A stretch of DNA of 64,000 nucleotides, taken from the NCBI RefSeq assembly GCF_018320785.1, contig NC_054877.1, positions 38,524,151 to 38,588,150 on the forward strand, in the 5' to 3' direction. Shown in pieces: positions 9,127 to 34,923 of this stretch. This DNA is from Cheilinus undulatus (Eukaryota; Chordata; Actinopteri; Labriformes; Labridae). Under the pieces are notes generated by a model, which was not told where the DNA came from, did not search any database, and was given only the letters and a program-made list of their open reading frames with translations. The translations under genes were made by a program, and so were the position numbers. How positions within the stretch are numbered: position 1 is the stretch's first letter; the number at the start of each line of letters is the position of its first letter.

Positions 9127-12100
9127 ATGGGGAACCTGCAGTGCCCGGCTGAGGATGCGGCCCGTATGGCCTCTGTAGCTCGAGACGTCTGCCCTTTCCC
9201 AGACTACAACCCCAGTCCCTTTTTCAACAACATGCTGTCCATCAACTCTTCACGTCACCTGAGGGACCACTACATGGCAGTCCAGTCCTCCCTGAACCCT
9301 AAACAGCTGGAGGACTTCACCCAGAACCTGAGGAGAACCTTTGGCAGGGAGGGCAGGGTCTCTTATGGCGGGGTGGGGGTGGTGGCTCTGTCCCTGGCTG
9401 TGCTGTTTGACACCCTGGCTAAACAGGCAAGAGGAGAGTGGGTGCCGGACTCAGGACCCATCCCAGGTTTATTCCTCGAAGATCCGAGAGGGTACTACCC
9501 ACCACATGTCTACACGATCAGCGAGTACCTGAGGCTGGTTCCTTACATTGCTAACAACCCTGACAGGATGAGAGAGGAGACAGAGAGGTAGGTACTGCAT
9601 GGGCTTTAGGTGTCACAGAATTTATCATGAAAGCTTCTGTATTTGAAAAAAATAAGCATTTCTTTTTTGGACTATGATAAGTTACATAACCACTACATGG
9701 CACATGGTGGACACCACGACCCAAGCAGTACTGCCACCTTTAATAAAACCAGGCTCAGTAGGCTCCAAAAGGTTTTCTTTAAGTAAGCTGGCTCAAAAAA
9801 GCCAAGATATGACATATAAATACTTTGCATTTGATCTGTATCTGACAAAGATGATAATCCTCTCTTTGCCCCCCAAAAGATCCTGAAATTAGACTAAAAA
9901 AAAAAAGTAGTTACATCAGGAAGTGAATAAAAGGTTAACAAAAACTTTTATTTTATATAATTTAAAGATGAAAATTGCAACCCTGATAAAAAAAAAAGTT
10001 GGGACACTGCCAGGCAAAAATAGAATGCAATGATTTGCAATTCTCATAGAAACGTATTTTACTCATATCAGATGCTGAAACTGAGACATTTTACCATTTC
10101 ACAAAAATGATCAGCTTATTTTAAATTTAATGGCAGAAACATGTCAAAAAAAGTAGGGACGGGACAGCTGAAGGATGGAAAAGCAAGCAATAGCAATGAA
10201 AAACAGCTGGAGGAACATTTTGCAACTATTAGGGTAATTAGTTGTGTCAGTAAGTGATCTTAAAATTCATTTTTACAGACTTGATTTTATTTGAGATGAT
10301 TTTCTTATTGTTTTTTTATCCTCTCACAAATGTTTACCCTTGTTACAAGTTTTGGCTTTTTCTAATTTCTATTGCCTTCCTCTCTTTAGTGCTTGTATCT
10401 TTATATGTTTCCTTTTTATACTTTCGCCATTGTATTTAATTATTTTACTGTCTCTATATTTATAGAGCTTATTTTATCATGATTTTACTCTTTATTCATA
10501 ATTAACTGTTTTTATTGACTCACAATCTGTTTCTCTTACCACATCTTACTGCTTTTGCCCTCCTGTTAATGTTTTGATCTCTCACATTCATTCCTCTTTC
10601 CTCTGTTTTTAATCGATCACACCTTAAATCTTTGGTCCTCTCAGTCTAAGCCCATGTAGCTGGGCTCCTATTGTTTTTCTGGTACCTATGATATCATGCG
10701 AAAACTCACCCACAGATCGGCCGGGCCCCTGACAAACCAAGAATGGTCCCTCCCCAGGAGTGATTTATTGATGACGTCAAAGTGTGTGTGTTTTATCAGT
10801 AGCTTTGGTGTGAGTGTCCTGGCTCACAGTTCTGTCATTTTGGAGCTGAAAAGTGTAGAAACTATTACTGGGTTCCAGTATTGAAAGTATTTATTTTTGT
10901 CACTGTTTTACCACTTTTTCCATCCAACTCTTGCCACTTTCTGCCTATTGTTGCCTCTGTCAACCCACTGTTGCAGCTAGTAAGCCCCTTTCACATCCAT
11001 TTTAACCACATTTCTGCCACTTTGCCAGTTTAACCCTTTTCTGCCACTTTCTGCCTATTTTTGCCCATTTAAACCAATGTTCACCACTCTTTAATCCTTT
11101 TTCACCACCTTTCCAGCTATTTTTTCTCCTTTAAACCCCTTTGTCATTTTTTAAATTCCATTTAACTACCCTTTCTGTCCATTTTTCCAATTTAAAGCCA
11201 TGTTGTCCATTTTAAACCCTATCCACCACTTTTTTTAACCACTTTTGCCACTTATAAACCAATTCTTGCTACTTTCTGCCCATTGTTGCCTCTGTTGACC
11301 TACTATTGCCACTATTTACGTCTTTTGACCACTTTTTACAACAATTTTGACCATGCTTCCCCATCTCTAATGCCATTTTTTGACAGTTTAAGCAATTTCT
11401 TCTAATTCTGCCCATTTTGCTGCCTCAGTTAACTCATTGTTGCCAGTTTAAACCAATTTTTCCCATTTTTAATCCTATTTCACCACATTTCCTGCCCGTT
11501 GTTGCCACTTTAATCCCATTTCACCACATTTTCCACCAATTTTGTCATTTTTAACCAATTTTAGCCGTGTTTAACCCATTGCAATTCTGTTCTTGAAAAA
11601 AGGGATTCACATTTTTAAAGACACTGTAAAGTGAAATCCAATGTTTTTGTCTTAATACACTAGATATGTTGGAATATGGTTGCTGTAAACATGTGAAAAC
11701 ACTGAGAGCTACATGTGACTGAATTCTGGATTTAGACTGTTAGAAAGTTTTTCACCTTTTTCCTTGCTGATGGGACTAATACATGTGCTCATGATGTCAT
11801 GAGACCACAGTAGGGAATGACCCCGTCCCTCTAACAAAACAATATAAAATCACAGAGCAGTTTATCTCAGTACAGGCTGTTGTAAGCTGATGTCACTGCC
11901 TTTATTGAAAGTTAACAGTCATTAAGGGCTGTTTTTTTTTGTTCATTGTGGAGTAAATTTGTCAAATCTATGAGCCACAGTGGTCTATGGATCATTTAAA
12001 GCATCATTACAGAGATTTGTGCCAGAAAACAGACTTCCTCTCTTCTTCTAAGGTCAACAAAAGGTCAGGTGGCAGGCTAATGGTGTGACAGCTGTTCTTA

Positions 12101-15100
12101 ATTCAGATTGTAGCATTTTTTTAATTTGAGAGGATCGTATTTTTTCCTGAGTGGGCGTGGCTTCAGCTCACTCAACAGACACCCCCACACCATCCTGGAG
12201 CAGATTTTAAGGCCTCATTTTTCATGATTTTAAAAACTTAGAGAAGTTTCATTTGAATGAAATGTACAGGGTCTTTAAGATGGCTATATGGTACAGCACA
12301 AATTGATTTTTTTTTTTTTTTTTGCTTTGATAAGAGTGTTTAGTATTCAGGTTAAAAAAAACAGTAAAACGAAATATGGATATCACAGCTTAACTTTTAC
12401 AATGGACAATGATTTAGCTGACCTCCATGGGCCTCCAGTTTGGCTGGTTCTAGAAACCTCCCCCTTCATCCCCCTCATGGATGGCCTTGTCTGCACATGA
12501 CTATTCTTGAATGTGCATGGCTGTGCTCAACCACCTTCAGGTACTGTGGGGATCCCTGGTCTCTTGCACCTTTATTTTTGGGGGTTGTGGGCTGAAAAGT
12601 TTGAGAATCCCTGCTTTAGGACATAAACTGCTCTGTATCAAAGTAACGTAATGAGATACACCAGCAGGAGTGTCTTGTTAAAGCATCCACTAATACATAA
12701 CTTTTCAATGCCTGACAGGTTGAATATTTCTTTAATTGCTTAACAGGTAACAATTGGATGTTTTAATTCTCAAATGTTCTACCGAACATTTGTGAGCAAA
12801 CTAGGGCTGAAATGATTCCTCTATTCGAGTGATTTGATTAAAAAAGCATTCCTCGAGACAAATTATCTGCCTCAAAGCTTCGCTTAAATCAGTCCTGTAT
12901 CCATATATGCCTGCGCTATAGACCTGGACATCACGGCGTGTATTACACGGTGTGCTGTGTTTCACACAGACCGCTATTTGTGTGGCACAATGCACTTGTT
13001 TTTGTTGTTACTATTACACAACATGCATGATTTGAGGCGTGAAAATCACGAGGGAAGAGAAGTTGATGCAGTAATGTTGACGGGCACGTGTCCTGTGTTA
13101 TGCAGCCAGTGCCTGTGGCTTCATGAAAAATATAGCGCTATGCCTGCACCGGTGACCCTATGCAGATCTCCAGGTTTACACGCTGCCTGCATGACCCTCT
13201 GGTGTGAGACAGCACTCAGATTATGTCTGTGGACTTCAGGGCATTTCATAAACTTCTCTGATTGACCCAACGGTTTCACAGAAAACCGTCAGGCGTCTTC
13301 TCTCTTTCTTTCTCTCTCCCTCTCTACCACGTGCGCACATTATACATTTAATTATAAATTATTTAAACACAATGCACTGACATCTTGATTACAGCGTATT
13401 TCTCAAAATGTTTCAGCATCCCAAATAATTTGATAAGACTTATATTGATAATAAAGTGACACCAATTAAAGAGAAACACGCTATTGCCACAGACAGTGAC
13501 TGATACTAAATAGGTTAAAGTTCATCATCATATAGTCAGGATTCAACAGGTCACAGAGGCAGCTTTATCCCTTAAAATCTTAAAATGTGTTCTCCATGTC
13601 AGTGGATGGTCTTAAAATGTCATATTTTTATGGTGCATGAACTCACAAACAAAATGTGCAAAAGTGAACACTGTTTGAAAAATCGACCATATTCCTGTAA
13701 TCTAAAGGTTCACCGTTCAGACATCATCAGACCGCTATGTGAATGATGGAGCTGTATTCTTGCTAGAATGTGAAATATTACATTTATGCATAAACTAGAA
13801 CAGTGGTTCCCAAACTGTTTTTGTCGGGCCCCCTTTGGCAGATGAAAATATCCCCCCCCCCCCCCCCCACCCCCCCACCCCCACCCCTCATTGTGCATAT
13901 CAACATGTAAAAACAAAAATTTATGACAAACACACCGGCATTCACAACTTTTGAAAACATATTCCTTTCTTCTTTTTTTTTAAAATTGACCATAACATAA
14001 AACCAAAAAAATTCAGTTTTAAAATTCTGACTCTCCGAAGATTAACAGTTTGCTGAAAAACAACACAATACAAACATCTCTAGGATTTGTAAGTCCTTCA
14101 GTACTTTCAGCAACTACTGTGGGGGGTTTTTGGAGTTGTGGATACAGATGTGAGACTGACAATCTCAGGGCATTTTTGATGTCCAGCTTTGGTTTGTTTT
14201 TTGTCTTAATTGCAGCAGCAGCAGAAAAAACAAAGGATGTTGTAAAAGGAAAGAGTACGGCCAAAGCTTTAAAATGACACTGTTGAATCTGAGGTGACAT
14301 CAGTGGACTGCTTTTGTTTTTGTGTTGAAGTCATCAGCTTGTGTTGCTTAGCCTTGCCTTGTTGCACCCCACCTAACATGACCTTGCACCCCCCTGGGGG
14401 GGCCCACGGCCCAACTGAACTAGAGGATGTTAAAATGATTAAGTGTCCCTTCACTTTAATGGCCAATTGGAGAATAGAAATAGACTACAATAGAAAAAAT
14501 AAAGTGTTAGCACCAAACATTTCCTGGAAGAGGATCCCTAAAACCCCAAATATGGCATAATCTAATGTAATTATTCAACTTCCTGAATCTGTTAATACCA
14601 ATTTTTAATATAGAAGTAGTTAATTTAAGGGACCAATCTTCTGTTCTCATTTGTCTAACACTTTTTCTCTTAAAAAAGCAAAAGTGATTCGTAAAAAAAA
14701 TGCAATATTTCTTATTAGAGTACCTAATTAATCGCCAGAAGAATCGATAGAGTACTCGATTACAAAATGAATCAATTACTGCAGCCCTTGAGCAAACAAT
14801 TTGAAGAAAGTATTTTCTTTCCTTTACAATTACTGAATATTTAACTAGTCAGATAAAAGATTGAATTTTTAAATGTTGCCCTTCTGTTGTCTGTGTTTGT
14901 GTGTATCTAACCAGGTACATCCAGCAGCTGAAAGACAAACCAGAAGAGAAACTCAAAAGTCGGTTTGGTGAAGACATCCATGGGGTCAACAGCGCACTTG
15001 GGGAGTTATTTCTACACCACCTGAACACTCACCTCCTCCGAATTACCAACTCTGCGGAAAGAGCTGATTCTGTCCATGAGCAGAAGACAAAGCCAGTCTC

Positions 15101-15455
15101 TGCGGAGGGGTCCAATAAAACTCAAGGTGATGCTGCTCACATAGGAAAGGCCAGAAAGAAACGATTGATTCCACCTGAAAATATTATGTCCTTCAGTCTC
15201 AACTGTGATCCAGAGAGTTCCAGTAAAGACTTTCTGGATGAGGTGCAAAAATCAAATGCAACACGTGCATCTTACATGGCATGTTTCCCACATAGGGGCA
15301 TTCCAAAAACATGGATACACTACGCTGCCAGACTGGTGTGGTTGGATGTCATCAACGGCAACATGTTTGATTTTAGACGTGATCAAGACTTAGTGGTTGC
15401 TCAAAGAGGGGATCTTGACCTGAAGGTCGATGCTCTAAGAAGATGGGATGACTGA
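9127..15455 (+). CDS. Unrecognised two-exon family, copy A (333 aa)
   Basis: The exons are 9127-9587 and 14915-15455, joined in phase 2 (GAG AG then G TAC), with donor AG|GTAGGT and acceptor CCAG|G. The protein starts MGNLQCP, with a glycine at position 2 and a nearby cysteine that could carry lipid. It then has ARDVCPFPDY and a conserved exon-1 core, including a hydrophobic run GGVGVVALSLAVLF at about residues 81-94. Exon 2 keeps only scattered family anchors: NTHLLRITN, FSLNCD and DLDLKVDAL. Compared with the sisters it has about 30 extra residues rich in lysine and arginine (KARKKR) between the first two anchors. No signal peptide is seen, so it is probably cytosolic or membrane-attached. 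The intron is 5.3 kb and full of transposons. I do not recognise the family and assign no function. The frame is intact. Confidence 0.8.
9985..10240. mobile_element. Fish interspersed repeat fragment in intron of copy A
   Basis: Phrases such as AAAAGTTGGGACACTG, GAATGCAATGATTTGCAA and AAAAAAGTAGGGACGGGACA are ones I associate with a widespread teleost DNA-transposon repeat. No coding sequence is present. The superfamily cannot be set from this piece. Confidence 0.45.
10706..12490 (-). mobile_element. Composite repeat (family R), copy 2, split by a MITE
   Basis: In minus orientation the right-end phrase (GGCCGGGCCCCTG) lies at about 10717 and the left-end phrase (CCCCCTCATGGATGGCC) at about 12471. 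The internal array of TTTTGCCACTTT-type units runs 10900-11590. A TTAA-target MITE occupies 11619-12274. The repeat fills much of the intron of gene copy A. Homology to copy 3 continues beyond the left end to about 12612. Confidence 0.65.
11619..12274. mobile_element. TTAA-target MITE (piggyBac or Kolobok type), 656 bp
   Basis: TTAA flanks both sides (11615-11618 and 12275-12278). The ends are AGACACTGTAAAG and, on the right, TACAGGGTCT, forming an inverted repeat of about ten bases. A paralogous empty site at 29269-29272 reads through the same flanks with a single TTAA, which confirms the insertion and its target duplication. TTAA duplications are made by piggyBac and Kolobok transposases. 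The AG start favours Kolobok, but this is inference. No open frame of note. Confidence 0.8.
12491..12612. repeat. Repeat flank shared with 29415-29535
   Basis: This stretch matches 29415-29535 closely, including TGAATGTGCATGGCTGTG and GGCTGAAAAGTTTGAGAA. Its end, read on the minus strand, starts like a hAT terminus (TTCTCAAACTTTTCAGCCC). It may be an extended end of family R copies 2 and 3, or a second element into which they are set. Confidence 0.5.
12802..14789. mobile_element. Non-autonomous hAT element with perfect 8-bp target duplication
   Basis: The ends TAGGGCTGAAATGATTCC and (right, reverse complement) AAGGGCTGCAGTAATTGA are flanked by identical copies of GAGCAAAC at 12794-12801 and 14790-14797. 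This eight-base duplication is the hAT hallmark. No transposase domain was recognised inside. A second hAT element is inserted at 13801-14417, so the original length was about 1.36 kb. It sits in the intron of gene copy A. Confidence 0.85.
13801..14417. mobile_element. Nested hAT element, 617 bp
   Basis: It begins CAGTGGTTCCCAAACTG and ends CCCAACTG. The flanks are AACTAGAA (13793-13800) and AACTAGAG (14418-14425), a target duplication with one mismatch. Near the left end lies a C-rich run that is almost pure C over about 35 bases. No transposase is encoded. It lies wholly inside the larger hAT element and is therefore younger. Confidence 0.8.
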
Positions 15456-15496
15456 TTTACTGTTTCAAATCTTCTAATGAAGAACTATGAAAATAC

Positions 15497-15502
15497 AATA
15501 AA
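15497..15502 (+). terminator. Poly(A) signal of copy A
   Basis: AATAAA lies 42 bases after the stop codon of copy A. A second AATAAA occurs near 15636. Confidence 0.6.
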
Positions 15503-16449
15503 AAATGTAATTGCTCTTTTGCTGTCTTGATATTTTTATAGCCATGAAAAAAGTAGATCTCAGCTTTATAATACAAAAAATTTGTAACAAAATAATTATA
15601 GATTATTCATTTACTCATTGTTTATTCTAAAGTCAAATAAAGATGGAACTGTTCCCTGATCTCTGGAAAGTTTATGTGTCAAAACTGCAGCCCACTCCCA
15701 TCAGCTCTCACAGACAGAAGGCTAATGTTTACTCTATTTACACAATCCTGTTAGACACTGGAACCCTAAGGGTTAGGGAAATGGGGGGGGGGATATAATT
15801 AAAATAACACATCACAAACTAAGGAAAAACTCAACAATGGTTGGTACATCACTTCCTGCCCCATGGTCAAGGTCACCTGATAGTCGAGGTCTGCAATAGA
15901 TGAGCCCAAATCGCCCCTCCGTAGAGGACTGCAGCTAGATGCCTCTTGATGGACTTCCCAGACTCCATCTCAGTCATCAAGCAAATCCATCTTCAAAAGC
16001 TCCAATCTACAACGCTTGTGCCAAACAACACTGTTCAGACCAGTCAGCGTCATTAGAGGAGAACAAGGCCGTTGCTACAGACAGGGCGTCCTCGTACTGA
16101 AAGACATTCGCAATGGCTGCCTCAACTACGGTGATAACCTCGGACATAGCTTCAGTATAGCAGCAGTTTTAACAGAACTGGACCATGCTTCTGTATGAAA
16201 TAAAGAGTAAAAACAACACTTTGACCTTTTTATTAAGGTTTTAACCTGACACAGTTTTAACCACGGAAAGCTTCAACAGGAAATGTTTGAGAAAAGGCAG
16301 AGGCTTTGAAAAAAACTCGGCGTGTGATTGGATGAACGTTTTGTCTGTCACATCTCTACGGGCCAATCAGAGCAACAAACACGTGATATGGCCGCTATCA
16401 AGCTGTGCGTGCGCAGTGTGTGTCAAAACTTTTGACTGATACTGTATAT
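15503..16449. other. Intergenic, nothing firmly recognised
   Basis: No family-like exon is present. The stretch 16220-16440 has CCAAT-type (GGCCAATCAGAGC) and CACGTG elements like a promoter, but no exon follows before a mariner remnant begins. Confidence 0.4.
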
Positions 16450-16577
16450 TGAGAACTGTACAGCAGGGTGGAATTATTGATTTATCCCTTCAGAACAATG
16501 CTATTTCCTCTCCAAACAAAAAATAATCATGAATGAATGAATGCTACGGAAAGGTAAGTTTCCTTTTACACCAGCTT
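16450..16577 (+). repeat. Paralogue of the 5' flank of copy B
   Basis: This segment matches 22213-22345, which lies 250-380 bases before the ATG of copy B, including an AATG microsatellite (ATGAATGAATGAATG) and the phrase TTTCCTTTTAC. The match stops at a TA where a mariner element has inserted. It may be the promoter remnant of a lost family member, or a dispersed repeat. Confidence 0.55.
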
Positions 16578-17193
16578 ATTACACTGCGCACCAAATTATT
16601 ATGCAAATTAGATTTTAGTGTCATAAACATTCAAATTTTTGTTTTTTAATCAAACATTGATGGTATTGTGTCTCAGGGCTCTTTGGATCACTGAAATCAA
16701 TCTCAGACACCTGTGATAATTAGTTTGCCAGGTGAGCCCAATTAAGGATTACTACCTAAGAAGGATGTTCCACATTATTAAGCAGGCCACAGATTTCAGA
16801 AATATGGGAAAGAAAAAGGATCTCTCTGCTGCTGTAAAACGTCAAATAGTGTAATGCCTTGGAAAAGAAATGAAAACATTAGATATTTCATGAAAAATTA
16901 CGTGTGATCATCATACTGTGAAGACATTTCTGGCTGATTCAGAGCACAGACGGGTTCATGCAGATAAAGACATAATGAGGAAGGTTTCTGACAGACAAAC
17001 TCATCAGATTAAGAAAGCAGATGCTAAAATGTCATTACAAAGCAGCGAACAAATATTTTAAGCTGCTGGCGCCTCTGGAGTCCCACCAACCTCAAGGTGT
17101 CGGATCCTCCAGAGGCTTGCAGTCATGCATAAACCTACTATTTGGCCACCCTATCCAATGCTCACAAGCAGAAACAGTACATGAAGACTCATT
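16578..17193 (+). mobile_element. 5' half of a mariner-like element
   Basis: The terminus CACTGCGCACCAAATTATTA follows a TA target. A start codon region GKKKDLSAAVKRQIV begins at about 16806, and transposase-like phrases follow across frames (TCDHHTVKTFLADSEHRR, then ILQRLAVMHKPTI near 17110-17140). It contains stops and frameshifts. It is cut off where the left arm of the large palindrome begins near 17194, and its 3' half is not found on the other side. Confidence 0.75.
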
Positions 17194-18941
17194 TCGTATG
17201 CAAATTTTGAAACCGCAAGATAAACGCAGTAATCTTGGAATTAGCATGTAAACTGATGAAAACGGTTTGTTGAAAATCTCTCCGAGATTCTCCCGAGACG
17301 ACATTTCGATGGCCCAAACTGATGAGGTCATCGCAATAGGATCTCCTGACTGGTTCATGGATTCGTCCGTGCTGCCAGCAAAGCGGAACAGACTGCCCCC
17401 ACAAGGCTTTTTAGCCAATTAGCAACACAGTAATTAAACATTTACTAAACAGATAGGTCCTGCTCTATCCTTCGCTGCTGCTGGTCCCCCCTCTCTCCAA
17501 ACCATCAGGGTCAGACTCCAGGTCTAACACATACAGATGAATATCAAAATTTGCCATATTTTACTCAGTCGAACCGGTTCATTCAAAGCTTTCAACTACT
17601 AACATAACAACATTAGCCACATTGGAGGGGGCGGGCACAAAACATTGAGTCCTGCCGCTGGCCAGCCTCTGGAAAATCGGCCAATCGGAGGAAAGCAGGT
17701 CCGTGGAGCGGGGGCTGTCAAAGAGACAGCAGCGAAAACAAAGCGTTTCAGACGGAGGTCAAAAAATAAGGGTTTTCAGGACGCCAGTGTGAGAAACATG
17801 AGTTTTTGAGCTGTAAACCATGTAAACCATGTAAAGCTACTACGTGGGTATCAGAGAGATGGTGTAAAGCTTTGAAAAAAGGCAAAATACCCCCACTTTA
17901 AGATATGATACTCAAACCATTTTGTAACATGCAAAATACTGACCATGGAGTAAGAGCAAACCAAGGCCCATAACATTTTCCCAAATGAACTCTAATATAC
18001 ATATAATGATGACATATTTGAGGATTAAAATGTGTAATGTGAAATGAAAAAACAGATTTAAGATGTTGTCTGTTTAATGTTACTTCCTGTTTCCTGTCTG
18101 GGCGCATATATCTGCACCCACAGCCTTCCATTGTTGTTATGAAATTATAAACAAGATAACACAGGAGATACATCACACAGTGGTGAACCTTTGATTAATT
18201 TGCTGTTATTTGTAGGTTGTAGTTGGCGGTGCTGCGTAAACATGTTTGAATATGTATCTGTCTCTGTGGAGCTGAACAGTGTGATGCTTTGTCAAAGCTC
18301 CATGAAGTGTGCGCTCTAAATCTTTGTAAAGAAGTTAAAAGGCAAAGCTTTAATGCTCCCCTTGTTATGAGGTAGACCTATCACCTCAAATGTGTTTAAA
18401 GTGTGCCATATTAACCAGTGTCAAATTAACTGGTGACAGTCTGGGGGCGTGGCTTCTTGAAATGTTTAATATCTACCATCTTGAGTCAGAGCACCTCCGA
18501 TCAGGTCAGAGAGGGAAAAAGTCACTCTGAACACACCCCAGAATAAAATATCATCTTTAGAACCATCTGATAATCAGGCCTTGACTGGCTGGTTGTAAGA
18601 GGGGATTTAGGCTGACAATCAGCACGATTATCGTCTAGAGTGTGACCCACTTTAGCAACATCCTGAAAAAAGAGATTCAACCAGAAAACTAGGATTTTAT
18701 TGTTTGCTTATTTCTTCATTTTATCAAAGTTTACAGGCAAGCAGGTAGCTGTGTGTGCATAACCTTGGTGTTGCCAGTAAAACAGTGATAGAGGCGTATG
18801 TTCAAGCTGAACTGGCTTACTTTTAGGGACATTTATGGGAACATGACTGAAGGGAACATATAAGACTCCCATCAGATAAAACATGTTTGGTAGAGGTGCC
18901 AAAACAAATTCAGAGAGTTTTCAGTCTGTTAATTTAATGAT
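17194..18941 (+). repeat. Left arm of 3.6-kb palindrome
   Basis: This arm of about 1.75 kb is the reverse complement of 19057-20827 with roughly 97-98 percent identity by eye. Small differences show it is not an exact copy. The left arm has a duplicated CCATGTAAA near 17818-17836. The right arm has an extra 18-20 bases near 20120-20150. The arm includes a 64-codon open frame (18708-18902, minus) repeated identically in the other arm, with no known family. No transposase and no clear target duplication were found. Confidence 0.9.
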
Positions 18942-19056
18942 TAATTTAAAGTGTATTTATACTATTTTATCTCAGTATTCAGACAGCTTAATCAGTACTT
19001 GAAGTTTAGAGAATGCTTTGTTAGAGCAGCACAGTTCAGCTTGTAATGTGCATCAG
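18942..19056. repeat. Loop of the palindrome
   Basis: A 115-bp spacer separates the arms. It resembles 25349-25470 (shared TACTATTTTATC and GTTAGAGCAGCACAGTTCAG). The resemblance seems to continue a short way into the right arm. Confidence 0.7.
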
Positions 19057-20827
19057 ATCATTAAATTAACAGACTGACAAACTCTCTGAATTTGTTTTGG
19101 CACCTCTACCAAACATGTTTTATCTGATGGGAGTCTTATATGTTCCCTTCAGTCATGTTCCCATAAATGTCCCTAAAAGTAAGCCAGTTCAGCTTGAACA
19201 TACGCCTCTATCACTGTTTTACTGGCAACACCAAGGTTATGCACACACAGCTACCTGCTTGCCTGTAAACTTTGATAAAATGAAGAAATAAGCAAACAAT
19301 AAAATCCTAGTTTTCTGGCTGTATATTTTTTTTCTAGGATGTTGCTAAAGTGGGTCACACTCTAGACGATAATCGTGCTGATTGTCAGCCTAAATCCCCT
19401 CTTACAACCAGAGTCAGTCAAGGCCTGATTATCAGATGGTTCTAAAGATGATATTTTATTCTGGGGTGTGTTCAGAGTGACTTTTTCCCTCTCTGACCTG
19501 ATCGGAGGCGCTCTGACTCAAGATGGTAGATATTAAACATTTCAAGAAGCCACGCCCCCAGACTGTCACCAGTTAATTTGACACTGGTTAATATGGCACA
19601 CTTTAAACACATTTGAGGTGATAGGTCTACCTCATAACAAGGGGAGCATTAAAGCTTTGCCTTTTAACTTCTTTACAAAGATTTAGAGCGCACACTTCAT
19701 GGAGCTTTGACAAAGCATCACACTGTTCAGCTCCACAGAGACAGATACATATTCAAACATGTTTATGCAGCGCCGCCAACTACAACCTACAAATAACAGC
19801 AAATTAATCAAAGGTTCATCACTGTGTGATGTATCTCCTGTTTTATCTTGTTTAAAATTTCATAACAACAATGGAAGGCTGTGGGTGCAGATATATGCGC
19901 CAAGACAGGAAACAGGAAGTAACATTAAACAGAGAACATCTTAAATCTGTTTTTTCATTTCACATTACACATTTTAATCCTCAAATATGTCATCATTATA
20001 TGTATATTAGAGTTCATTTGGGAAAATGTTATGGGCCTTGGTTTGCTCTTACTCCATGGTCAGTATTTTGCATGTTACAAAATGGTTTGAGTACCATATC
20101 TTAAAGTGGGGGTATTTTGCCTTTTTTCAAAGCTTTTGCCTTTTTTCAAAGCTTTACACCATCTCTCTGATACCCACGTAGTAGCTTTACATGGTTTACA
20201 GCTCAAAAACTCATGTTTCTCACACTGGCGTCCTGAAAACCCTTATTTTTTGACCTCCGTCTGAAACGCTTTGTTTTCGCTGCTGTCTCTTTGACAGCCC
20301 CCGCTCCCCGGACCTGCTTTCCTCCGATTGGCCGATTTTCCAGAGGCTGGCCAGCGGCAGGACTCAATGTTTTGTGCCCGCCCCCTCCAATGTGGCTAAT
20401 GTTGTTATGTTAGTAGTTGAAAACTTTGAATGAACCGGTTCGACTGAGTAAAATATGGCAAAATTTGATATACGTCTGTATTTGTTAGACCTGGAGTCTG
20501 ACCCTGATAGTTTGGAGAGAGGGGGGACCAGCAGCAGCGAAGGATAGAGCAGGACCTATCTGTTTAGTAAATGTTTAATTACTGTGTTGCTAATTGGCTA
20601 AAAAGCCTTGTTTTTGGGGGCAGTCTGTTCCGCTTTGCCGGCAGCACGGACGAACCACGAACCAGTCAGGAGATCCTATTGCGATGACCTCATCAGTTTG
20701 GGCCATCGAAATCTCGTCTCGGGAGGATCTCTGAGAGATTTTCAACAAACCGTTTTCATCAGTTTACACGCTAATTCCAAGACTACTGCCGCATACGTTT
20801 ATCTTGCGGTTTGAAAATTTGCATACG
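19057..20827 (-). repeat. Right arm of 3.6-kb palindrome
   Basis: Inverted partner of 17194-18941. Its outer end reads TTTGAAAATTTGCATACG, matching the inverse of CGTATGCAAATTTTGAAA at the start of the left arm. No gene of known family lies within. A GC-rich stretch near 20270-20400 with GATTGGCCG (CCAAT-like) looks promoter-like in both arms. Confidence 0.9.
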
Positions 20828-22594: not shown

Positions 22595-23600
22595 ATGGGA
22601 AACTTTATATGCCCTGTTACCTCTCCACTGGCCTCTGTAGCTCGAGACATCTGCCCTTTCCCAGACTACAACCTCAGTCCTCTCTTCACTAACATGCTGT
22701 CCATCAACTCTTCACGTCACCTGAGGGACCACTACACAGAAGTTCAGTCCTCCCTGAACCCCAAACAGCTGGAGGACTTCACCCAGAACCTGAGGAGAAC
22801 CTTTGGCAGGGAGGGCAGGGTCTCTTATGGCGGGGTGGGGGTGGTGGCTCTGTCCCTGGCTGTGCTGTTTGACACCCTGGCTAAACAGGCAAGAGGAGAG
22901 TGGGTGCCAGACTCAGGACCCATCCCAGGTTTATTCTTCAAAGATCTAGGGGGGTACTACCCACCACATGTCTACACAACAAGTCAGTACCTGAGGCTGG
23001 TTCCTCACGCTGCTAACAACCCTGACAGGATGAGAAAGCTGACAGAGAGGTAGGCAGAACAAATATGCCTCTGTGAAAAAATTCACAATGATAGATTTCA
23101 TGCAGTGTGATGTGATTTTATTGTTTGATTTCTCACAAAGATACTTGAAGAAGATGAAAATTGAAGACCAAGCACTGGCAAAATCTGGACTTGACCAAGA
23201 ACTTCTTCTTGAAGACATCTCTGTACTAAATGTGCTTGTAAGTGTGGTGTTGGCATTGGACGCAAAGAAAATCTACTTGCACATTAACGGCACTGATAGT
23301 GATGAGCTGATAAGCAGTTCTTCTTTAAAGGATCCAAATGTCACCTTCAGTTTAAATTGTGACATAAAGACAGCCGACCAACAATTTTTGGCTGAAGTGC
23401 AAAAATCTGACATTCACATCCAAGAGGCGTTTAAAGAACTTGTGACAGATCAACAAGAGTCATTACTGTTGCAGGTAGCTAAGACAGATATTTCAAGTGA
23501 ATTTTTCAACTTTTTGTTATGTTCAAAACAAACTGATACCAATATCCAAAGAGTAGACTTTGACCTGAAGGCCAATGCATTGGGAACATGGAGAGAGTAG
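22595..23600 (+). CDS. Unrecognised two-exon family, copy B (304 aa)
   Basis: The exons are 22595-23049 and 23141-23600, with a 91-bp intron, donor AG|GTAGGC and acceptor CACAAAG|A. The protein begins MGNFICP and keeps the family core ARDICPFPDY, a hydrophobic run GVGVVALSLAVLF, and GPIPGLFF. Exon 1 matches copy A almost base for base across about 175 bases near 22770-22940. Exon 2 is diverged, with anchors FSLNCD, EVQKSD and DFDLKANALGTW still visible. It lacks the basic insert of copy A and is rich in leucine, aspartate and glutamate. No signal peptide. Function unknown. The frame is open throughout. Confidence 0.82.
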
Positions 23601-23873: not shown

Positions 23874-23879
23874 AATAAA
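23874..23879 (+). terminator. Poly(A) signal of copy B
   Basis: AATAAA about 270 bases after the stop codon of copy B, the first good match downstream. Confidence 0.5.
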
Positions 23880-25348: not shown

Positions 25349-25470
25349 GTGTATTTGTACTATTTTATCCAAGTATTCTGTGTGGAAACACAACACTTCT
25401 GTTAGAGCAGCACAGTTCAGCTTTAAAATGCAACAGGTAATCAAAGAAACAGATTGAAAATCAGGGGTGT
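25349..25470 (+). repeat. Second copy of the palindrome-loop sequence
   Basis: Matches 18950-19085 with moderate identity, sharing GTGTATTT, TACTATTTTATC and a 20-base GTTAGAGCAGCACAGTTCAG. It continues with similarity into the start of the right arm, then diverges. It is a single copy here, with no inverted partner. Confidence 0.6.
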
Positions 25471-25794
25471 TTAATGGGTATTTAGGGCCTGGTATTTTAT
25501 GATACCACAACAACTCTATACTAACAACTAATGCTAATTCTGAAACAGGTCTCGAATACACCTTAGCAACATCTTGTCTGGTGATCTGTGCATGAACTTT
25601 TTAAATCCTGCCATCATGGCTGGGAATGGTTTCCACAACATCCATGGACTGGTCATTCCTTTTGTGTGTCATTCAGAAGAACTAAATTTCTGGTGTCGAC
25701 TCAGCATTTCTTATCTCTACAGTGTGACTGGACGCATTTTTCCTTATGACCAAAAATACAGAAAATTTTTGTATTCCTTGTTAAAGACCCTGTA

Positions 25795-26345: not shown

Positions 26346-26608
26346 TTAACAAATAACTCACATTTGCATGTATTTCCTTTTCAAAACTGTAGGATTGTGA
26401 TTTTAACATTACTGCATCTCCTAACATTCTCACCCGTACTATTCTTAACAAACACTGCAAAACTACACGAAGAAAACCAGGGTAAATGCAGAACATCTGA
26501 TATTAGATTTAATACATTTTAAGACCTTTTTCAAGACCCTCTTCATGCTTTCTTATCTTACTGTAGCATTCAAATTAAGCTTTCTTAGAGAATTTCAAAT
26601 GTCTACAG

Positions 26609-27258
26609 CAGGGCTCTTCAATTGGGCAAATTTCAAAATCAAGAAATGTAGCTGGGCCGGACATGTTCGCTACCTAGTAAGCAGCTGGTAATGTCAAATT
26701 TGGAACCAATACAGATCAGTTTGATGACAAATATGCACTTTTTATTCATAGTCTCCCTTTTAAATTTAGCAGCATGACAAAGGCACATCAAAAAGTGCTT
26801 AAAAACACAACAACAGAGCTGTGTTTGAACATAAACTGAGGTGATAGAAATGTTTTTTTCACTTGAATGAAAATAAAACAAATAGAATGAAAAAATAAAC
26901 TGAAATTCTGTAAATTATCATTTTGGTCTCATCTTACCCAGGCATGTCTTAAAGTGCATAAAAACTAACTTTGCACAGTTGTGGGTAACGTTGAAAAGGA
27001 CATATTTTTTTTTGGGAAGGGCTACTTCTGTCAGCATTGCTAGCCATGCTTCATAACAACACAGTGCATTTTAGGTAGACTGTTGCTAGGCTACGCAGCT
27101 GCATTTACAGTTGCATTTACAGTCTGAAATGCTGTGGGAATTTATGAAAACTTGCGAAACACATTGCCCTCTGCATCTCTGGCATGACCACAGGCTGGGC
27201 CACTTGGGGTTGGTTCTGGGCCGCATTTGGCCCCTGGGCTGCTAATTGAATAGGCCTG
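26609..27258. mobile_element. Non-autonomous hAT element, 650 bp
   Basis: The left end CAGGGCTCTTCAATT and inverted right end CAGGCCTATTCAATT match at 13 of 15 bases. The flanks GTCTACAG (26601-26608) and GACTGCAG (27259-27266) agree at 6 of 8, an aged target duplication. Near the right end lies GGGCCGCATTTGGCCC, a phrase common in fish hAT elements. No transposase. Confidence 0.7.
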
Positions 27259-27514
27259 GACTGCAGTCTCAAAGTACCTTCTAACAAATTTTGCACTTCA
27301 GCTAAAACTACAAAGTAAAACATCTGACAGTTAGGGAAAAATAGCAAGTTATTATTGCTCATTTTGGAATTTTTCTAATATTCTTTAATGGAGATTTTGA
27401 AAAAAGCACAGAAATTCACAAAATGGGGTCACACAAATAAACTGAAAAAGATACAGAGAAACACAGAAAGCAAATAGACAGGGAGCATTCAGATGCAGGG
27501 AGACAGGTGTGGCA

Positions 27515-27660
27515 CATGAGACACAGGTGAGGGCAAATGAGACAGGTGAGGGCAAATGAGACAGGTGAGGGCAAATGAGACAGGTGAGGGCAAATGAGAC
27601 ACAGGTGAGGGCAAATGAGACACAGGTGAAGGCAAATGAGACACAGGTGAAGGCAATCAA
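27515..27660. repeat. Minisatellite, 19/21-bp unit, about 7 copies
   Basis: Units GCAAATGAGACAGGTGAGG (19 bases) and a 21-base variant with an extra AC repeat head to tail. An array with units of 21 bases stays open in one frame on both strands, giving repeats like VRANETQ, which explains the spurious open frames here. Confidence 0.85.
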
Positions 27661-27872
27661 GGAAGCTGGAAAAATACCAGGGCAGGAAGAAAACCAGCGA
27701 TCACACACAAGGAAGGAAAACTACAAAATAAAACTTGAAACAGTGAAGAGAAAACTGGAGGAAAGGAAAAAACCCCCACAAAGGAATAGAACAAGAGAAC
27801 ACCTGACTAGAAACTAAACTGGGAAACGCTCAATGACTAGGACACACAGAAGGTTGAAACAAAAAAACAGAG

Positions 27873-28390
27873 CTCAGATAAATAAATAATTAGATACATA
27901 AATAATTAATTGTGTCATTGATTATTTAAAATTGGTAATATATAAATAAATAAATAATTTATGAAATATATAAATAATTAAACAAATGTTTAACTAATTA
28001 TTTAAAATATCAATTCATTCTATGTGAAACCACATCTACTTATTCCACTATTTATTTAATTATTTCATGGTTCCTGCTCCAGCAGTGCATCATGAAAAAT
28101 TTTTATCTGTCATCCTCTCCCATCAAACTCAGTGGGCGGGACTAACGCTGATCACAAACCATTGCTTTGGTCTGCTGGGTTGCCAGACTAGGCGGTTTCC
28201 CGCCAAACAAACAAACAAACAAACAAACATGGCAGCAATCATTGCCACAATTAATTATTTAATTACACATGCATTTGATTAATTAAATAATTATATATTT
28301 ATTTATATATTTGTTGATTTATTTCCAATATTAAATAATTGATGACACATTTAATTATTTAATTAATTAAATATTTATATATTTCATTTT
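27873..28390. mobile_element. AT-rich foldback MITE-like element
   Basis: Left and right parts, each over 100 bases, are inverted copies rich in AAATAATTAA. For example AATTGTGTCATTGATTATTT on the left pairs with the inverse of a similar right-hand stretch near 28330-28355. The centre is GC-richer, with GGGCGGGACTAACG and an AAAC microsatellite. No coding sequence. Confidence 0.6.
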
Positions 28391-28539
28391 AGCACTTTTA
28401 GTCCTCCATAGGCTCTGACGTGATTTTGAGCAGTAAAATCATCGCCTTGACACCACACACTCGAAGATCATTCAGACAAATAATAGCTTATTATCTGAAT
28501 ATAGGGCTTCTACTCAGGACAAACCCCCACGATTGTTGG

Positions 28540-29415
28540 GGGAGGCAAAACCCCTTTTTACCAATTTTTATGCCTGTTTTTGCCACTTTAACCCTTAGAT
28601 GTCCACTAGCTATTTTGCCATTTTGTTCATTTTGACAAAATAAATCACTTGGAAAATGTGTACCATGCTCATGTTTGGTAAAATCTTTTTCCACACTACC
28701 TCAACTTTATAAAATGAAAACTACATATCTTAAACTACATATCTGTTTTAGATTTAGGACCTCCAAAATCACAACACCCCACAGATTTTTTTAAAATTGT
28801 TATTTAAAACAATATATTGTCATTCTGAAAAAAGAAATTACAATATGCTTAAATTATGAAAAAATACCAGCCCCAGTCCTGTACAGCATGGTCCATTGTC
28901 CCCTATGCTATGTGTAACATCAGTTTTTATATCAAATTAAAATTATCCTATTTCCTCTTTTACTTGGCCTATTGAAATCAAACAAAAACTGAAAAAAAGC
29001 TTAAAGATCATGCTTTCCACACGAAGTGATTGCAATGCAACATGTGGCTTTTTTTTCATGCTGTCATGTGACAAAAGTAGTACATGATGAAATCACGCTG
29101 GCGTGATCATGGACCCTTAAGAGTTACTATTTGCCTCCTTTTTGCAAATTTTATCTTATTTTTGCCACTTTTAATCTAGTTTTGCTACTTTTAAGATCCA
29201 AATTTTCCACCAATTTTGCCATTTTTAAGCCATTTCAGTTCTATTTATAAGAAAAGAGATTTACATTTTTAAGATGGCTATATACTATGGCAAATACTTG
29301 TTGTCTTGATAAGATTTATTATTTAGGTAAAAACTGAAATGTGGATTTAAGTTTACAATGGGCCATGATTTTGTTGACTCCATGGGCCCTTAAAAACTTT
29401 TATGGACTGCCTTGT
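28540..29415 (-). mobile_element. Composite repeat (family R), copy 3, partial
   Basis: Pieces of the internal array (TTTTTGCCACTTT) lie at about 28570-28625 and 29130-29245, and the conserved left flank at 29250-29415. Here the flank has an intact TTAA at 29269-29272, the empty site for the MITE found in copy 2. The segment between the two array pieces is unrelated and may be another insertion. Confidence 0.6.
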
Positions 29416-29744
29416 CTGCACATGACTTTTCTTGAATGTGCATGGCTGTGTTCAACCACCTTCAGGTTTAGTGGGGGTCCCTGGTTTCTGGCACCTTCAT
29501 TCTGGGGCTCGGGCTGAAAAGTTTGAGAAGCCCTAGTCTAGTCAATATCAACATTGGATAGCATGGCTTTTGAAATTACAACAAAAAAATAGATATGAAA
29601 CAACTTTTACTGTCTAAAACTAAACTACAATTTTTTCCCACTAAATCTAGAATCAAACATTTGAACTGACTAAAATGTCACAAAAACTAAAAAGCTTTTA
29701 AATTTACAAAGTCAGAAGTTCAAAATGCCAAAACAAACACTGCA
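29416..29744. other. Repeat flank then unrecognised intergenic DNA
   Basis: 29415-29535 repeats the flank seen at 12491-12612. The remainder before the copy C promoter block has no recognised content. Confidence 0.5.
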
Positions 29745-30095
29745 AGGACAAATAGTTCAGCCTGACTGCACATGTTGACCGCAATGATATCGTCACAAGG
29801 AAATTACCAGTGGATGTCATAAGCACACATGTTCCTGTAGGTGATTTGTAATTTAGGTTTTTACACACTCATTAAGTGTGTGTTTTGAGGAAAATCCAAC
29901 ATTGCTGCAACACACTGAGTCAGACAGAGCTGCATGCTGGGGAAGCAGGTCAATGATTATTGACAGATTTGACATCATTAACTCACTGTGAATTTATTCA
30001 GGAGGTTTGGGGCCCGATAGACACAGGCACATGGAGCAAAGTTGTGTGGCTCATCTGATTTTTATTTTTGAATTTGTAACTCACAAACTCTCGGG
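29745..30095 (+). promoter_or_regulatory. Promoter block of copy C, shared with copy D
   Basis: About 340 bases match 33578-33929 at roughly 85-90 percent by eye. The match includes TGCTGCAACACACTGAGTCA with an AP-1-type TGAGTCA at 29916-29922, then GGGGAAGCAGGT and GTGAATTTATT, a possible weak TATA region. A shorter match (GGGGAAGCGGGTGAATAATT) is present before copy B, so the block is older than the C/D split. Core promoter position is inferred. Confidence 0.5.
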
Positions 30096-31116
30096 ATGGG
30101 GAACAATTTTTGCCCTGCTGATGACTTATCCCCCCTCTCCTCAATAGCTCGAGATGTCTGCCCTTTCCCAGACTACACCCCCAGTCCCCTTTTTACCAAC
30201 ATGCTGTCCATCAACTCTTCACTTCACCTGAGGGACCACTACACGGCAGTCCAGTCCTCCCTGAACCCCGAACAGCTGGAGGACTTCACCCAGAGCCTGA
30301 GGAGAACCTTTGGCAGGGAGGGCAGGGTCTCTTATGGCGGGGTGGGGGTGGTGGCTCTGTCCCTGGCTTTACTGTTTGACATCCTGGCTAAAGAGGCAAG
30401 AGGAGGATGGGTGCCAGACTCAGGGCCCATCCCAGGTTTATTCTTCAAAGATCCAAGAGGGTTCTACCCACCACATGTCTACACGATCAGCGAGTACCTG
30501 AGGCTGGTTCCTCATATTGCTAACAACCCTGACAGGATGAGAGAGGAGACAGAGAGGTAGGTACTGCATCATGCAGCTCATCACATGTGCTTTTTGCAAA
30601 ATATGTGAACTCTGTGTCAACAGTTCCTGTTTTTTACCTCCTAGGTACATGAAGCGGTTAACAGCTGATGAAGACTCACTGGAGACCTTGAATGAAAAGG
30701 ATCTGCTACTGATGTATGAAGACGTCGTTCTACGAAACAGACTTCTGGCTAAATGGTTTGGAGTCAGTCTGAACATTCACCTCCTCCGTTTGACAAATGG
30801 CACAGCTAACGATCTGGTCAAATGGCCAAATGGCAATCAACTGACTGTTCTCACCCACAATCTCAACTGTGATCTGGAAACAGCTGACAAGGAACTGAAG
30901 GCTCGAGTCGAAAGATCTGACGACCTCACGCAAGAAGCTTTTAGAAGATACATGACCAACGGAAGGCCGTGGCCGCTCCAGGTGGCCGGGCTGGAATGGG
31001 TGAACACCAGGTTTTTTCTGGCGTGTGAAATTGGAGACAGAGATCATGATACAAAGATTGCACAAAGGGAAGATTTTGACCTGAAGGCGAACACACTTGG
31101 GAAATGGAAAGAGTAG
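30096..31116 (+). CDS. Unrecognised two-exon family, copy C (310 aa)
   Basis: The exons are 30096-30556 and 30645-31116, with an 88-bp intron, donor AG|GTAGGT and acceptor CTAG|G. The N-terminus is MGNNFCP, then ARDVCPFPDY and the shared exon-1 core ending RMREETER. Exon 2 includes LNIHLLRLTNG, NLNCDLETADKELKARVE and DFDLKANTLGKWKE. It is close to copy D and diverged from A and B. The exon-1 hydrophobic run is the only candidate membrane segment. No signal peptide. The frame is intact and the promoter block is shared with D. Function unknown. Confidence 0.82.
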
Positions 31117-31400
31117 TTCACTGGGGTGATGTATAAACATATACTCAAAGAAAATGATGTCCTTATGCAGCCACTATAGGAAAAAAAGTCTGCTCTATGG
31201 TTTGAATGTCTGATATTTCTTTTTTGTTTGGCCATTTCTGATCATGTTCTTTGCCTATTGTGTACTTTCTGTCCTGTCTGCATGTAATAATTGAAGTGTT
31301 GAAATTTGCAGTATCCTTGTTGTGTTGTTATTGTGTTCCCCATGTCATAGAAACATACTGTAATTGTACAGTTTTGGCTGAATTAAACTTTTGATAAATT

Positions 31401-31406
31401 AATAAA
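31401..31406 (+). terminator. Poly(A) signal of copy C
   Basis: AATAAA about 285 bases after the stop codon of copy C. Confidence 0.5.
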
Positions 31407-31450
31407 TAATACGTTTGATGGTGATTTTTTTTCTGTGTTTTGATACTTAA

Positions 31451-31655
31451 AGCCTTTGTAAAGAAAAATAAGACATATTGGAATAAAGTTGCTGTATACA
31501 CTAGAAAAAGACTGAGAGATACATATGACTGAGTTTTGGATTTAGACTGTTAGAAAGTCTTTTTTTTTTTTTTTTTTTTAACCTCTTTGGAGCTTTTTGG
31601 GAAGGGCAAAATGTAGAGCTCTGATGCACATGAGCTGCAAATGCATCACCCTATC
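31451..31655. mobile_element. TTAA-target MITE, 5' half only
   Basis: After TTAA at 31447-31450 the sequence AGCCTTTGTAAAG and the body phrases TTGGAATAAAGTTGCTG and TTTTGGATTTAGACTGTTAG match the other two MITE copies. It breaks off at a long T run and then a family R element, so the right end is missing. Confidence 0.6.
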
Positions 31656-31661
31656 CCACTA

Positions 31662-32225
31662 ACAAGGCCGCCCACAAGGCGGGATGGGGGAGGGATTTTT
31701 TGGGGCCCAGCCCTCATGAAAGTTAGGAAAATAAAGGTCAAATGTAAAGTTACGCTATGACCTTATTTTAGTTTAAACCTGAATAATAACGGCTCCCAAC
31801 TTAGCCACATTTTCTTAAATGTATTTATGCTGTACAACAATAAAGCCTTTTAAAATGTAAATCCCTTCTCTTCAAACAGAATGAACATTTTCTGTAATGT
31901 TAAAAATGTTGATGGGCACATTGGAAGTAATGTCAGACTTCATAGCTCTGCCATAATCTGCACAAATGTGCAAAAAAGAGCAGCAGAATAGGGTGGAAAG
32001 TGGCAAAAAGTGACAGAAATTGGGAAAAAGTGGCATAAAGAGGTTGCAAGAGGAGAAAAACTGGAGAAAAACAATCAAAATGGGCAAAGAGCGGCAAAAA
32101 TGGGGAAAGGTGGCAAAAAGAGGTGGAAAAAATGGAGGATTGAAAAATGGAAATTATGTGGCCAAGATTGGTTAAAAATTGTAAAAAAAAAAAAAAAAAA
32201 AAAAAAAGATGGAAAGTGTCAAAAA
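31662..32225 (+). mobile_element. Composite repeat (family R), copy 4, right end missing
   Basis: Starts GGCCGCCCACAAGG, keeps the left flank (GGGGCCCAGCC), and enters an array of AAAGTGGCAAAAAG units at about 31975. It ends in a run of about 23 A near 32185. The right-end block seen in copies 1 and 7 is absent. Confidence 0.6.
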
Positions 32226-32875
32226 GAAGTTCCAACACTGGCCTGAAAGGATGTGAGGTAGTGCAAGGCAGGAAATGACATTTCTGAATGAGATTGAAAA
32301 AAAAAACTATAACAATAAAAAAACAAAAGCCATCAGATTATACATACATTCATTTGGTACCAACTTCTGCTGTCTTCTTTTTGACAAAAAAAAAAAAAAA
32401 AAAAATGACTGAGGTCCAGACTTTGGTGACCTCAAAGCCTTGAAAGTGAGCCAGCATTTGGATGAATTATATTCTGCAATCATGCATGTTGGGAAGTTGA
32501 GAGGTGCTCGTACGACAGAGCTGCTGTATACGTTAAAATGAGGTTATCAGAGTTACTGTGCATAGCTGTTATTTCTCTATGCATTATCCAGTGTTGTAGG
32601 ACTCGGGTCCTGTTTGGGGGGCTCATGACTCAGACTTGGACTCGGACTCTAGCTTTAACTACATCAAGACTTGAGGATGACAAGGAGGACTCAAATGTTT
32701 TTTCCTTAAGACTATTTTATTCTGTAATATTAGTTGTTTTTGTGTGAGAAAATCCCTCATAACCTATCAGTGTCCATGTAACACCCGGTGTGTGCGTTCA
32801 CCTGCATGCGCGTTTACGTGTGTCTAACCAGCTGTCTGTTAAAACAACCAGAGGAAAGAGAGCAGGAGGAGAGAG
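32226..32875. other. Intergenic, nothing recognised
   Basis: Contains A runs and short open frames without family resemblance. Confidence 0.5.
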
Positions 32876-33412
32876 CATCAGGTTTAGGTCAGGGGAGGTC
32901 GGGGGCAACATCCTCTCCTTTTATACCCATGACAGCCAATGAAACAGAGGTATTCTTTGCAGCATGAGATGGTGCATTGTCATGCATGAAAATAATTTTG
33001 CTACAGAAGGCACGGTTCTTCTTTTTGTACCATGCAAGAAAGTGGTCGGTCAGAAACTCCATAGACTTTGCCGGGGTCATTTTCACACCTCCAGGGACCC
33101 TAAAGGGGCCTACCAGCTCTCTACCCATGCTTCGGCCCAAAACATGACTCCGCCCCCTCCTTGCTGACGTCACAGCCTTGTTGGGACATGGTGGCCATAC
33201 ACCAACCATCCACTATCTGGAATGTTCTTCTTAAGTAGTTTTCCTTCAATTGGGCTCTCCTGGCAAACTATCATAGGTGTCTGAGATTGACTTCAGTGAT
33301 CCATAGAGCCCTGAGACACAACACCATCCATGAGTTTAAAGTAAAACAAAAAAAAAGAATGTTTCTGACACTAAAATCCAGTTTGCATAATAATTTGAAA
33401 TGCAGTGTAGAA
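32876..33412 (-). mobile_element. Internally deleted mariner-like element
   Basis: On the minus strand the 5' terminus (ACACTGCATTTCAAATTATT) near 33410 is followed by the same non-coding leader as the mariner at 16578. The leader joins directly to a transposase C-terminal part containing KMTPAKSMEFLTDHFL and IIFMHDNAPSHAAKNT (around the second catalytic Asp). Most of the N-terminal half is missing. The end beyond the catalytic region is also lost. Confidence 0.75.
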
Positions 33413-33577
33413 CACTGTAGTGCACATTGGAAATGAGGTTCCCCTTAAAAGTACTGTATAATTTGAGCACTATTGTAATGATTAAGAGAAAAATGGATGT
33501 TTCCTTGTCTGTACAGAGCTCTTTCCTTGTCCTAGCCTTGTTAGTAAGGCCAGTGATTGGAAATGTCATCACATTTC

Positions 33578-33929
33578 AAGATAAAATAATTCAGCCCGAT
33601 TGCACATTTTGTCCACAATGATGCATGATCAGGAAATTACCAGTGGATGTCATAAGCACACATGTTCCTGTAGGTGTTTTGTAATTTAGGTTTTTACACA
33701 CTCATTAAGTGCGTGCTTTGTGAAACATCAAACATTGCTGCAACACACTGAGTCAGACAGAGCTGCATGCTGGGGAAGCAGGTGAATGATTAATGACAGA
33801 TTAGACGTCATCAGTTCCCTGTGAATTTATTTGGGATGTTCAGGGGATTTCGATAGACACGGGCACACGGAGCAAAGTTGTGTGGCTCATCTGATTTTTA
33901 TTTTTTTGGAGTTAAAATTTCATACAAAG
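33578..33929 (+). promoter_or_regulatory. Promoter block of copy D, shared with copy C
   Basis: Duplicate of the block before copy C. It carries TGAGTCA at 33749-33755 and a CRE-like GACGTCATC near 33805, which is GACATCATT in copy C. The match begins at about AATAATTCAGCCC, setting one edge of the duplication unit. Confidence 0.5.
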
Positions 33930-34923
33930 ATGGAATTTATTTGCCTTGCTGTTGACTTATCCCCCCTCTCCTCTTTAGCCCGAGACGTCTGCCCTTTCCC
34001 AGACTACACCCCAAATCCTCTTTTTACCAACATGCTGTCCACCAACTCTTCACTTCACCTGAGGGACCACTACACGGCAGTCCAGTCCTCCCTGAACCCC
34101 GAACAGCTGGAGGACTTCACCCAGAGCCTGAGGAGAACCTTTGGCAGGGAGGGCAGTGTCTCTTATGGCGGGGTGGGGGTGGTGGCTCTGTCCCTGGCCG
34201 TGCTGTTTGACACCCTGGCTAAACAGGCAAGAGGAGAGTGGGTGCCGGACTCAGGGCCCATTCCAGGTTTATTCTTCAAAGATCCAAGAGGTTACTACCC
34301 ACCACATGTCTACACAATCAGCGAGTACCTGAGGCTGGTTCCTCACATTGCTAACAACCCTGACAGGATGAGAGAGGAGACAGAGAGGTAGGTACTGCAC
34401 CATGCAGCTCATCATATGGGCTCTTTGCAAAATGTTTGAACTCTGTGTCAGCTCTTCTTCTTTTTTGCCTCCTAGGTACATGAAGCGGTTAACAGCTGAT
34501 GACAAATCATTGCAAAACTTGAAAGAAAACCACACACTACCCATAAATGAAGACATCACATTTAATAACAGAGTTCTGGCTAAATGGTTTGCAAGCAGTC
34601 TGAACATTCACCTCCTCCGTTTGACAAATGGCACAGCTGACGATCTGGTCAGGTCCAATGAAAAACACTCAGCTATTACCTTCAATCTCAACTGTGATCT
34701 GGAAACAGCTGACAAGGAACTGAAGGCTCGAGTTGAAAAATCTGACAACTCCACACAGAAAGCTTTCAGTGACCTCATGAAAAATGGGAAGCTGTGGCCG
34801 CTCCAGGTGGCCGAGCTAATGTGGTGGAGAAATATGTATCATCTGGCTTGTGAAATTGGAATAGATGATGATGCAAAGATTGCACAAAAAGAAGATTTTG
34901 ACTTGAAGGTCAATGCACTTTGA
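33930..34923 (+). CDS. Unrecognised two-exon family, copy D (301 aa)
   Basis: The exons are 33930-34387 and 34476-34923, with an 88-bp intron, donor AG|GTAGGT and acceptor CTAG|G. I chose the ATG at 33930 because it aligns with the starts of the sisters. The frame is open upstream to 33831, but that part matches the untranslated leader of copy C. The N-terminus is MEFICLAVDL, so the MGN start of A to C is gone after a three-base loss and substitutions. The core of exon 1 is unchanged. Exon 2 resembles copy C (LNIHLLRLTNG, NLNCDLETADKELKARVE). It ends early at DFDLKVNAL, lacking the usual last five or six residues. Function unknown. Confidence 0.8.

Follow-up and report, generated by a model that had tools for sequence, protein, structure and literature searches.

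In mammals, recurrent gene conversion has homogenised the 5' ends of IFIT1 and IFIT1B, the 3' ends diverge, silent sites included, and the C-terminus was linked to the functional difference between the two (PMC4887208). This pair is the nearest precedent in mode, front homogenised and back diverging, for the gene array from the fish Cheilinus undulatus described here. The array differs from it in that its proteins show no TPR in Pfam up to E 10, nor any other Pfam match above the cut-off, and in that the break between the two parts falls on an exon border.

As a candidate for what the family is, a different system comes closest. The Gig1-like genes of salmon form three tandem copies with the annotated domain PTHR38706 (PMC12247413, PMC7316828). 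The former paper calls them fish-specific and describes proteins of 222-240 aa coded in one exon, a long 5' intron, copy differences near the C-terminus (two deletions, and divergence of the Ssa06 paralogue) and abcc6/nlrp3 as neighbours (PMC12247413).

We consider it probable that the present locus is an array of an unnamed fish family in which exon 1 has been homogenised by conversion while exon 2 diverges, likely with a use in innate immunity.

The array and its comparison with Gig1-like genes

The window is a stretch of 64,000 nucleotides (contig C13, 38524151-38588150); relatives were sought in the genome of 1.17 Gb in 46 contigs, and all gene comparisons come from this one genome. On the + strand of the window lie four genes, A to D, with two coding exons each. 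As the original prediction had it, they are intact and run in one direction: all frames are open (301-333 aa), and each is interrupted by a phase 2 GT-AG intron, which measures 88-91 bp except in A, where it reaches 5,327 bp. Gene A comprises exon 1, the putative constant module, at 9127..9587 and exon 2, the putative variable module with a long insertion, at 14915..15455 (protein of 333 aa). Gene B follows at 22595..23049 and 23141..23600 (304 aa), gene C at 30096..30556 and 30645..31116 (310 aa), and gene D, the exon 1 of which is without the MGN start seen in A-C, at 33930..34387 and 34476..34923 (301 aa). The DNA block that A has in common with the other copies (9167..9600, + strand; identity to B 93.0%, to C 94.0%, to D 94.2%) begins at codon 14-15 and ends 5-13 bases beyond the splice donor. 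C and D are the halves of a tandem duplication, of which the C half (29737..31110, + strand) has 85% identity to 33571-34933, including the 5' flank and the intron. The C-terminal tail of the array proteins is conserved.

Between A and B, at 17226-20789 of the window, there is a large near-perfect inverted repeat, the arms of which come in five pieces that are 96-99% complementary, with the innermost arms 158 bases apart. Elsewhere in the window, exons at 43113-56137 encode three CUB domains and one LDL-receptor class A domain, resembling a NETO gene. Open stretches at 59391-62299 presumably belong to a FAM173-type methyltransferase, and two stretches on the - strand (3584-4523 and 45630-46041) are presumably Tc1/mariner transposase remains; the three pieces scanned of the former and the two of the latter gave no Pfam match.

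It had been remarked that no known domain could be recognised in these proteins. This is borne out for Pfam, with no match of the A-D proteins passing the cut-off, and for a PDB sequence search, which returned scattered weak matches only (best E 0.039), none of them credible. Patterns matched 32 and 70 stretches in viral and bacterial/archaeal collections, and at the sensitivity of these scans no relative was confirmed. In the open-licence literature, we found no description of a constant/variable plan for the family of the array.

The body motif of the family, as we judge it, resembles Gig1-like, and the family may be fish Gig1-like, this being the nearest identity candidate by comparison of descriptions. 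Both occur in fish, are arranged in tandem and differ near the C-terminus, the salmon genes being called fish-specific (PMC12247413), whereas the array has two coding exons and proteins of 301-333 aa against one exon and 222-240 aa in salmon. The salmon paper was the only one, among the literature searched, in which PANTHER and zebrafish names were found. A strict ISRE was absent upstream of all four array genes (2.5 kb) and of 14 single-exon genes elsewhere in the genome (1.4-1.5 kb); loose matches numbered four among these 14. In the 5 kb upstream of the array genes, C and D had a single loose match apiece, and A and B had none. Given the long 5' intron of the salmon copies, the promoter may lie beyond the scanned stretch. 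Neighbours of the abcc6/nlrp3 type were not seen by eye within about 10 kb on each side of the main single-exon groups on contigs C21 and C3. An ABC search, with 19 of 233 candidates scored, gave one match, resembling ABCC10, at 72 kb from the paralogue E introduced below. The tests run on this identity, namely exon number, length, ISRE and neighbours, did not support it. That we are dealing with an ordinary interferon-stimulated Gig1-like (PTHR38706) family is a reading we regard as possible but lean against; it overlaps with conversion in an unnamed family, to which it would mainly add a name.

Exon contrast, conversion and constraint

Silent and replacement rates were calculated per exon by the Nei-Gojobori method, with bootstrap intervals on dS. 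For exon 1 and exon 2, respectively, dS amounted to 0.17 and 1.33 (A/B), 0.15 and 1.31 (A/C), 0.17 and 1.53 (A/D), 0.21 and 1.32 (B/C), 0.20 and 1.42 (B/D), and 0.12 and 0.34 (C/D). Excluding the young pair C/D, the mean over five pairs was 0.18 for exon 1 and 1.39 for exon 2, where values above 1 are near saturation. The bootstrap intervals of the two exons did not overlap in any of the six pairs, and dN followed suit: exon 1 gave 0.05-0.09, whereas exon 2 gave 0.65-0.94, except for 0.24 in C/D. Where the amino acid of a codon is unchanged, silent differences were significantly rarer in exon 1 for five of the six pairs (P 1.6e-6 to 4.4e-5); for C/D the exon contrast had a P of 0.37. The predicted contrast between a uniform exon 1 and a diverged exon 2 is thus real, dS being unequal between the exons among the four copies. 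Exon 1 itself is less alike in codons 1-31 (dS 0.27-0.59) than in codons 32-115 (0.08-0.15). Exon 1 has the higher GC3 (0.62-0.69, against 0.39-0.51 in exon 2), an expected outcome of GC-biased conversion. The dN/dS ratio of exon 2, 0.45-0.71 over six pairs, does not demonstrate positive selection on this exon.

Some details of the original prediction need correction. A long match between A and B does exist in exon 1, but the stretch described as about 175 bases with one difference holds two in 173 bases (A 9303-9475), at 9447 and at the end base 9475. Its partner in B is found at 22765-22937 and not at 22772-22944; when the latter range is compared without a shift, 127 of the 173 bases differ. 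An unbroken identity between A and B in exon 1 spans 146 bases (A 9301-9446). Likewise, the exon 2 anchors HLLRxTN, NLNCD and DFDLK are present, but none is common to all four copies as given: the first is missing in B, the second reads SLNCD in A and B, and the third reads DLDLK in A.

A GENECONV-like run test, giving raw P values for each of the six pairs, was significant over the whole CDS for A/B (P 0.00035), C/D (0.00045), and A/C and A/D (0.04), with B/C and B/D not significant. Within exon 1 alone, A/B had a P of 0.002 and the remaining five pairs were not significant. Restricted to the 29 silent sites, the test singled out A/D (P 0.015) and A/C (0.025), with A/B at P 0.57 and three further pairs not significant. 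Along exon 1 the nearest partner of A shifts, from B in the middle to C and D near the 3' end.

Could strong constraint, for instance from codon use or RNA elements, hold the silent sites of exon 1 in place with no conversion at all? The A/B result on silent sites would fit this, and paralogues outside the array provide a control. A search of the genome with the array genes gave eight places: A-D themselves, E and F on contig C4, G on C12, and H on C1, a match of 36 residues. E is an open two-exon gene with its intron at the same place as in the array genes. F (L010, near 48721643-48722092) is a lone open exon 1; reading about 17 kb downstream of it revealed no second exon. From codon 21 onwards, exon 1 dS averages 0.125 within the array (five pairs, C/D excluded) and 0.434 against E, a ratio of 0.29 (95% interval 0.17-0.45), so that these silent sites are about 3.5 times more different from E than from one another; taking exon 1 in full raises the ratio to 0.37 (0.24-0.56). 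Against F, the array has a dS of 0.48-0.56 for exon 1 from codon 21. In exon 2, dS is 1.393 within the array and 1.395 against E, a ratio of 1.00 (0.55-1.63). Silent sites are thus more alike within the array than to a paralogue elsewhere in exon 1 only. Since exon 1 silent sites can change, as E demonstrates, yet are homogenised in the array, recurrent gene conversion best explains their likeness. On the other hand, exon 1 dS is lower than that of exon 2 even against E on another contig, and the values against E and F (0.37-0.56) stay below most exon 2 values, suggesting that some constraint or older conversion is also at work.

Trees of the two exons place the genes differently. With six rows in exon 1, A-D group apart from E and F (support 99/98), and forcing B together with E is rejected (p-AU 0.009, or 0.0002 minus the first 20 columns); the same grouping has a p of 0.052 on third positions and is not rejected with five rows, F being excluded (p-AU 0.149). 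In the exon 2 DNA tree, B pairs with E (100/99) and the test rejects a forced pairing of A and B (p-AU 0.005), although this tree is without an outgroup and the B-E split is also compatible with an A-D clade if the root is placed on E.

The C/D duplication provides a second line of evidence. The JC distance between these copies is 0.151 in the intron and 0.140 in the 5' flank, both below the exon 2 dS of 0.34, and a pS test of intron and flank against exon 2 silent sites gives P 0.0011; in the 45 bases preceding the C start codon the two are less alike (JC 0.43). Intron and 5' flank being closer than exon 2 silent sites favours conversion over pure constraint. We therefore regard an explanation by constraint without conversion as improbable. 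As judged from these comparisons, recurrent conversion inside the array is the best explanation, along with some constraint on exon 1; of the two alternatives that the original prediction had left side by side, it is the conversion that is favoured, by the paralogue on another contig as well as by the C/D intron and flank.

Positive selection on exon 2 of C/D was also considered. Its pN of 0.207 lies above the 0.130 of flank and intron combined (P 0.006), with P 0.17 when the intron is taken by itself. As pS is raised too (0.273), conversion of the flank explains the excess equally well, for which reason this candidate was rejected.

Two further explanations fare worse. If exon 2 were decaying under relaxed constraint, its high dN outside C/D would follow, but all four frames are open, the tail is conserved, the E copy on the other contig is open, and dN stays below dS throughout, all of which makes decay very unlikely. 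That a recent copy of exon 1 was shuffled next to older, unlike second exons, once and for all, would suit a shared block ending near the exon border but can hardly be upheld when the second exons are related to one another and to that of E, the intron of E sits at the same place, and the nearest partner of A changes along exon 1.

Single-exon relatives in the same genome

Gene G is the bridge between the array and a single-exon gene family. A search with one single-exon member led to 22 places on C21, C3, C12, C5 and, weakly, C6, of which 17 (L030-L046) entered a profile and 14 (L030-L039, L041-L044) the ISRE scan. Frames of 306-346 aa are open in 14 of the 17 read, with L040, L045 and L046 being shorter, and L047-L051 are fragments or weak matches. 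The profile of 17 single-exon proteins matches G at E 1.5e-10, and A-F weakly (E 0.004-0.16) but above all 300 shuffled decoys. Conversely, a profile of A-G scores 12 of the 17 single-exon proteins above all 300 decoys. In a comparison of profiles, exon 1 matched six single-exon proteins with P 2e-4 and a probability of 46%; for exon 2 alone, the comparison with single-exon proteins was not significant (P 0.13). Judged by these profiles, the array is the branch with two exons in a larger family that has no Pfam match. G itself (L011, C12 near 44275882) has an apparent intron within the stretch matching array exon 1 and none seen at the array's intron place, so that intron positions seem to differ between the branches.

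Patch and body were analysed in 13 genes (L030-L035, L037-L039, L041-L044; L036 was excluded as a lone copy), comprising six on C21, one of which lies 0.27 Mb from the others, four on C3 and three on C12. In all three groups the body is fairly even and a hypervariable C-terminal patch occupies approximately columns 238-278 (235-290 on C3); in the C21 group the first 30 columns are variable too. With the body taken minus its first 30 columns, pS is higher in the patch than in the body at P<0.05 for 13 of 15 pairs on C21, three of six on C3 and two of three on C12, P values that overstate the significance as the patch limits were chosen after inspecting variability. A-D are thus not alone in pairing an even body with a variable C-terminal part. 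The idea of a constant module joined to a variable one is in this respect strengthened, since the pattern recurs in three other groups. The single-exon family thus resembles the array in this pattern and through distant homology, mainly via G, but differs from it in having one intronless frame and a short, late patch, where nearly all of exon 2 is variable in the array.

Near 6.77-6.78 Mb on C12, amino-acid change between L041 and L043/L044 is concentrated in a single patch, about 37 codons long, in which pN exceeds pS. For L041 against L043, pN and pS are 0.374 and 0.195 in the patch, and 0.018 and 0.044 in the body; L043 and L044 are near-identical over their full length.

Protein features and a proposed division of labour

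No signal peptide stood out in a hydropathy scan, and from sequence we infer that the array proteins would be intracellular. The best 19-residue hydropathy means (A 1.7, C 2.0 and D 1.8, all in exon 1; B 2.2 at residue 173, in exon 2) are borderline for a candidate membrane helix. An N-myristoylation start was rejected: D does not have the MGN start of A-C, in which, as we understand the usual pattern, the proline at position 7 breaks it. AP-1-like heptamers occur in the 300 bases upstream of A, C and D; B has none there.

So what might such an arrangement do? The protein would combine a conserved N-terminal module, encoded by exon 1, with a fast-changing C-terminal module encoded by exon 2. 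Recurrent conversion from neighbour to neighbour would homogenise exon 1 from around codon 14 to just beyond the splice donor, and exon 2 would escape it and diverge, as the divergence patterns support. The constant part may then serve a shared task, for example in assembly or signalling. Contact with changing targets may fall to the variable half, which would make this half the recognition part. More tentatively, the array and its relatives could form an undescribed fish superfamily of innate recognition, with about 20 genes on several chromosomes, in which conversion keeps the body uniform while a hypervariable C-terminal patch is under diversifying selection, the two-exon branch having the whole of exon 2 variable.

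If this holds, fish would possess a family in multiple arrays with a constant chassis and a changing tip, and the single-exon groups would amount to replicates inside one genome. Alongside IFIT1/IFIT1B, it would also give vertebrates a second example of conversion halting at a module border.
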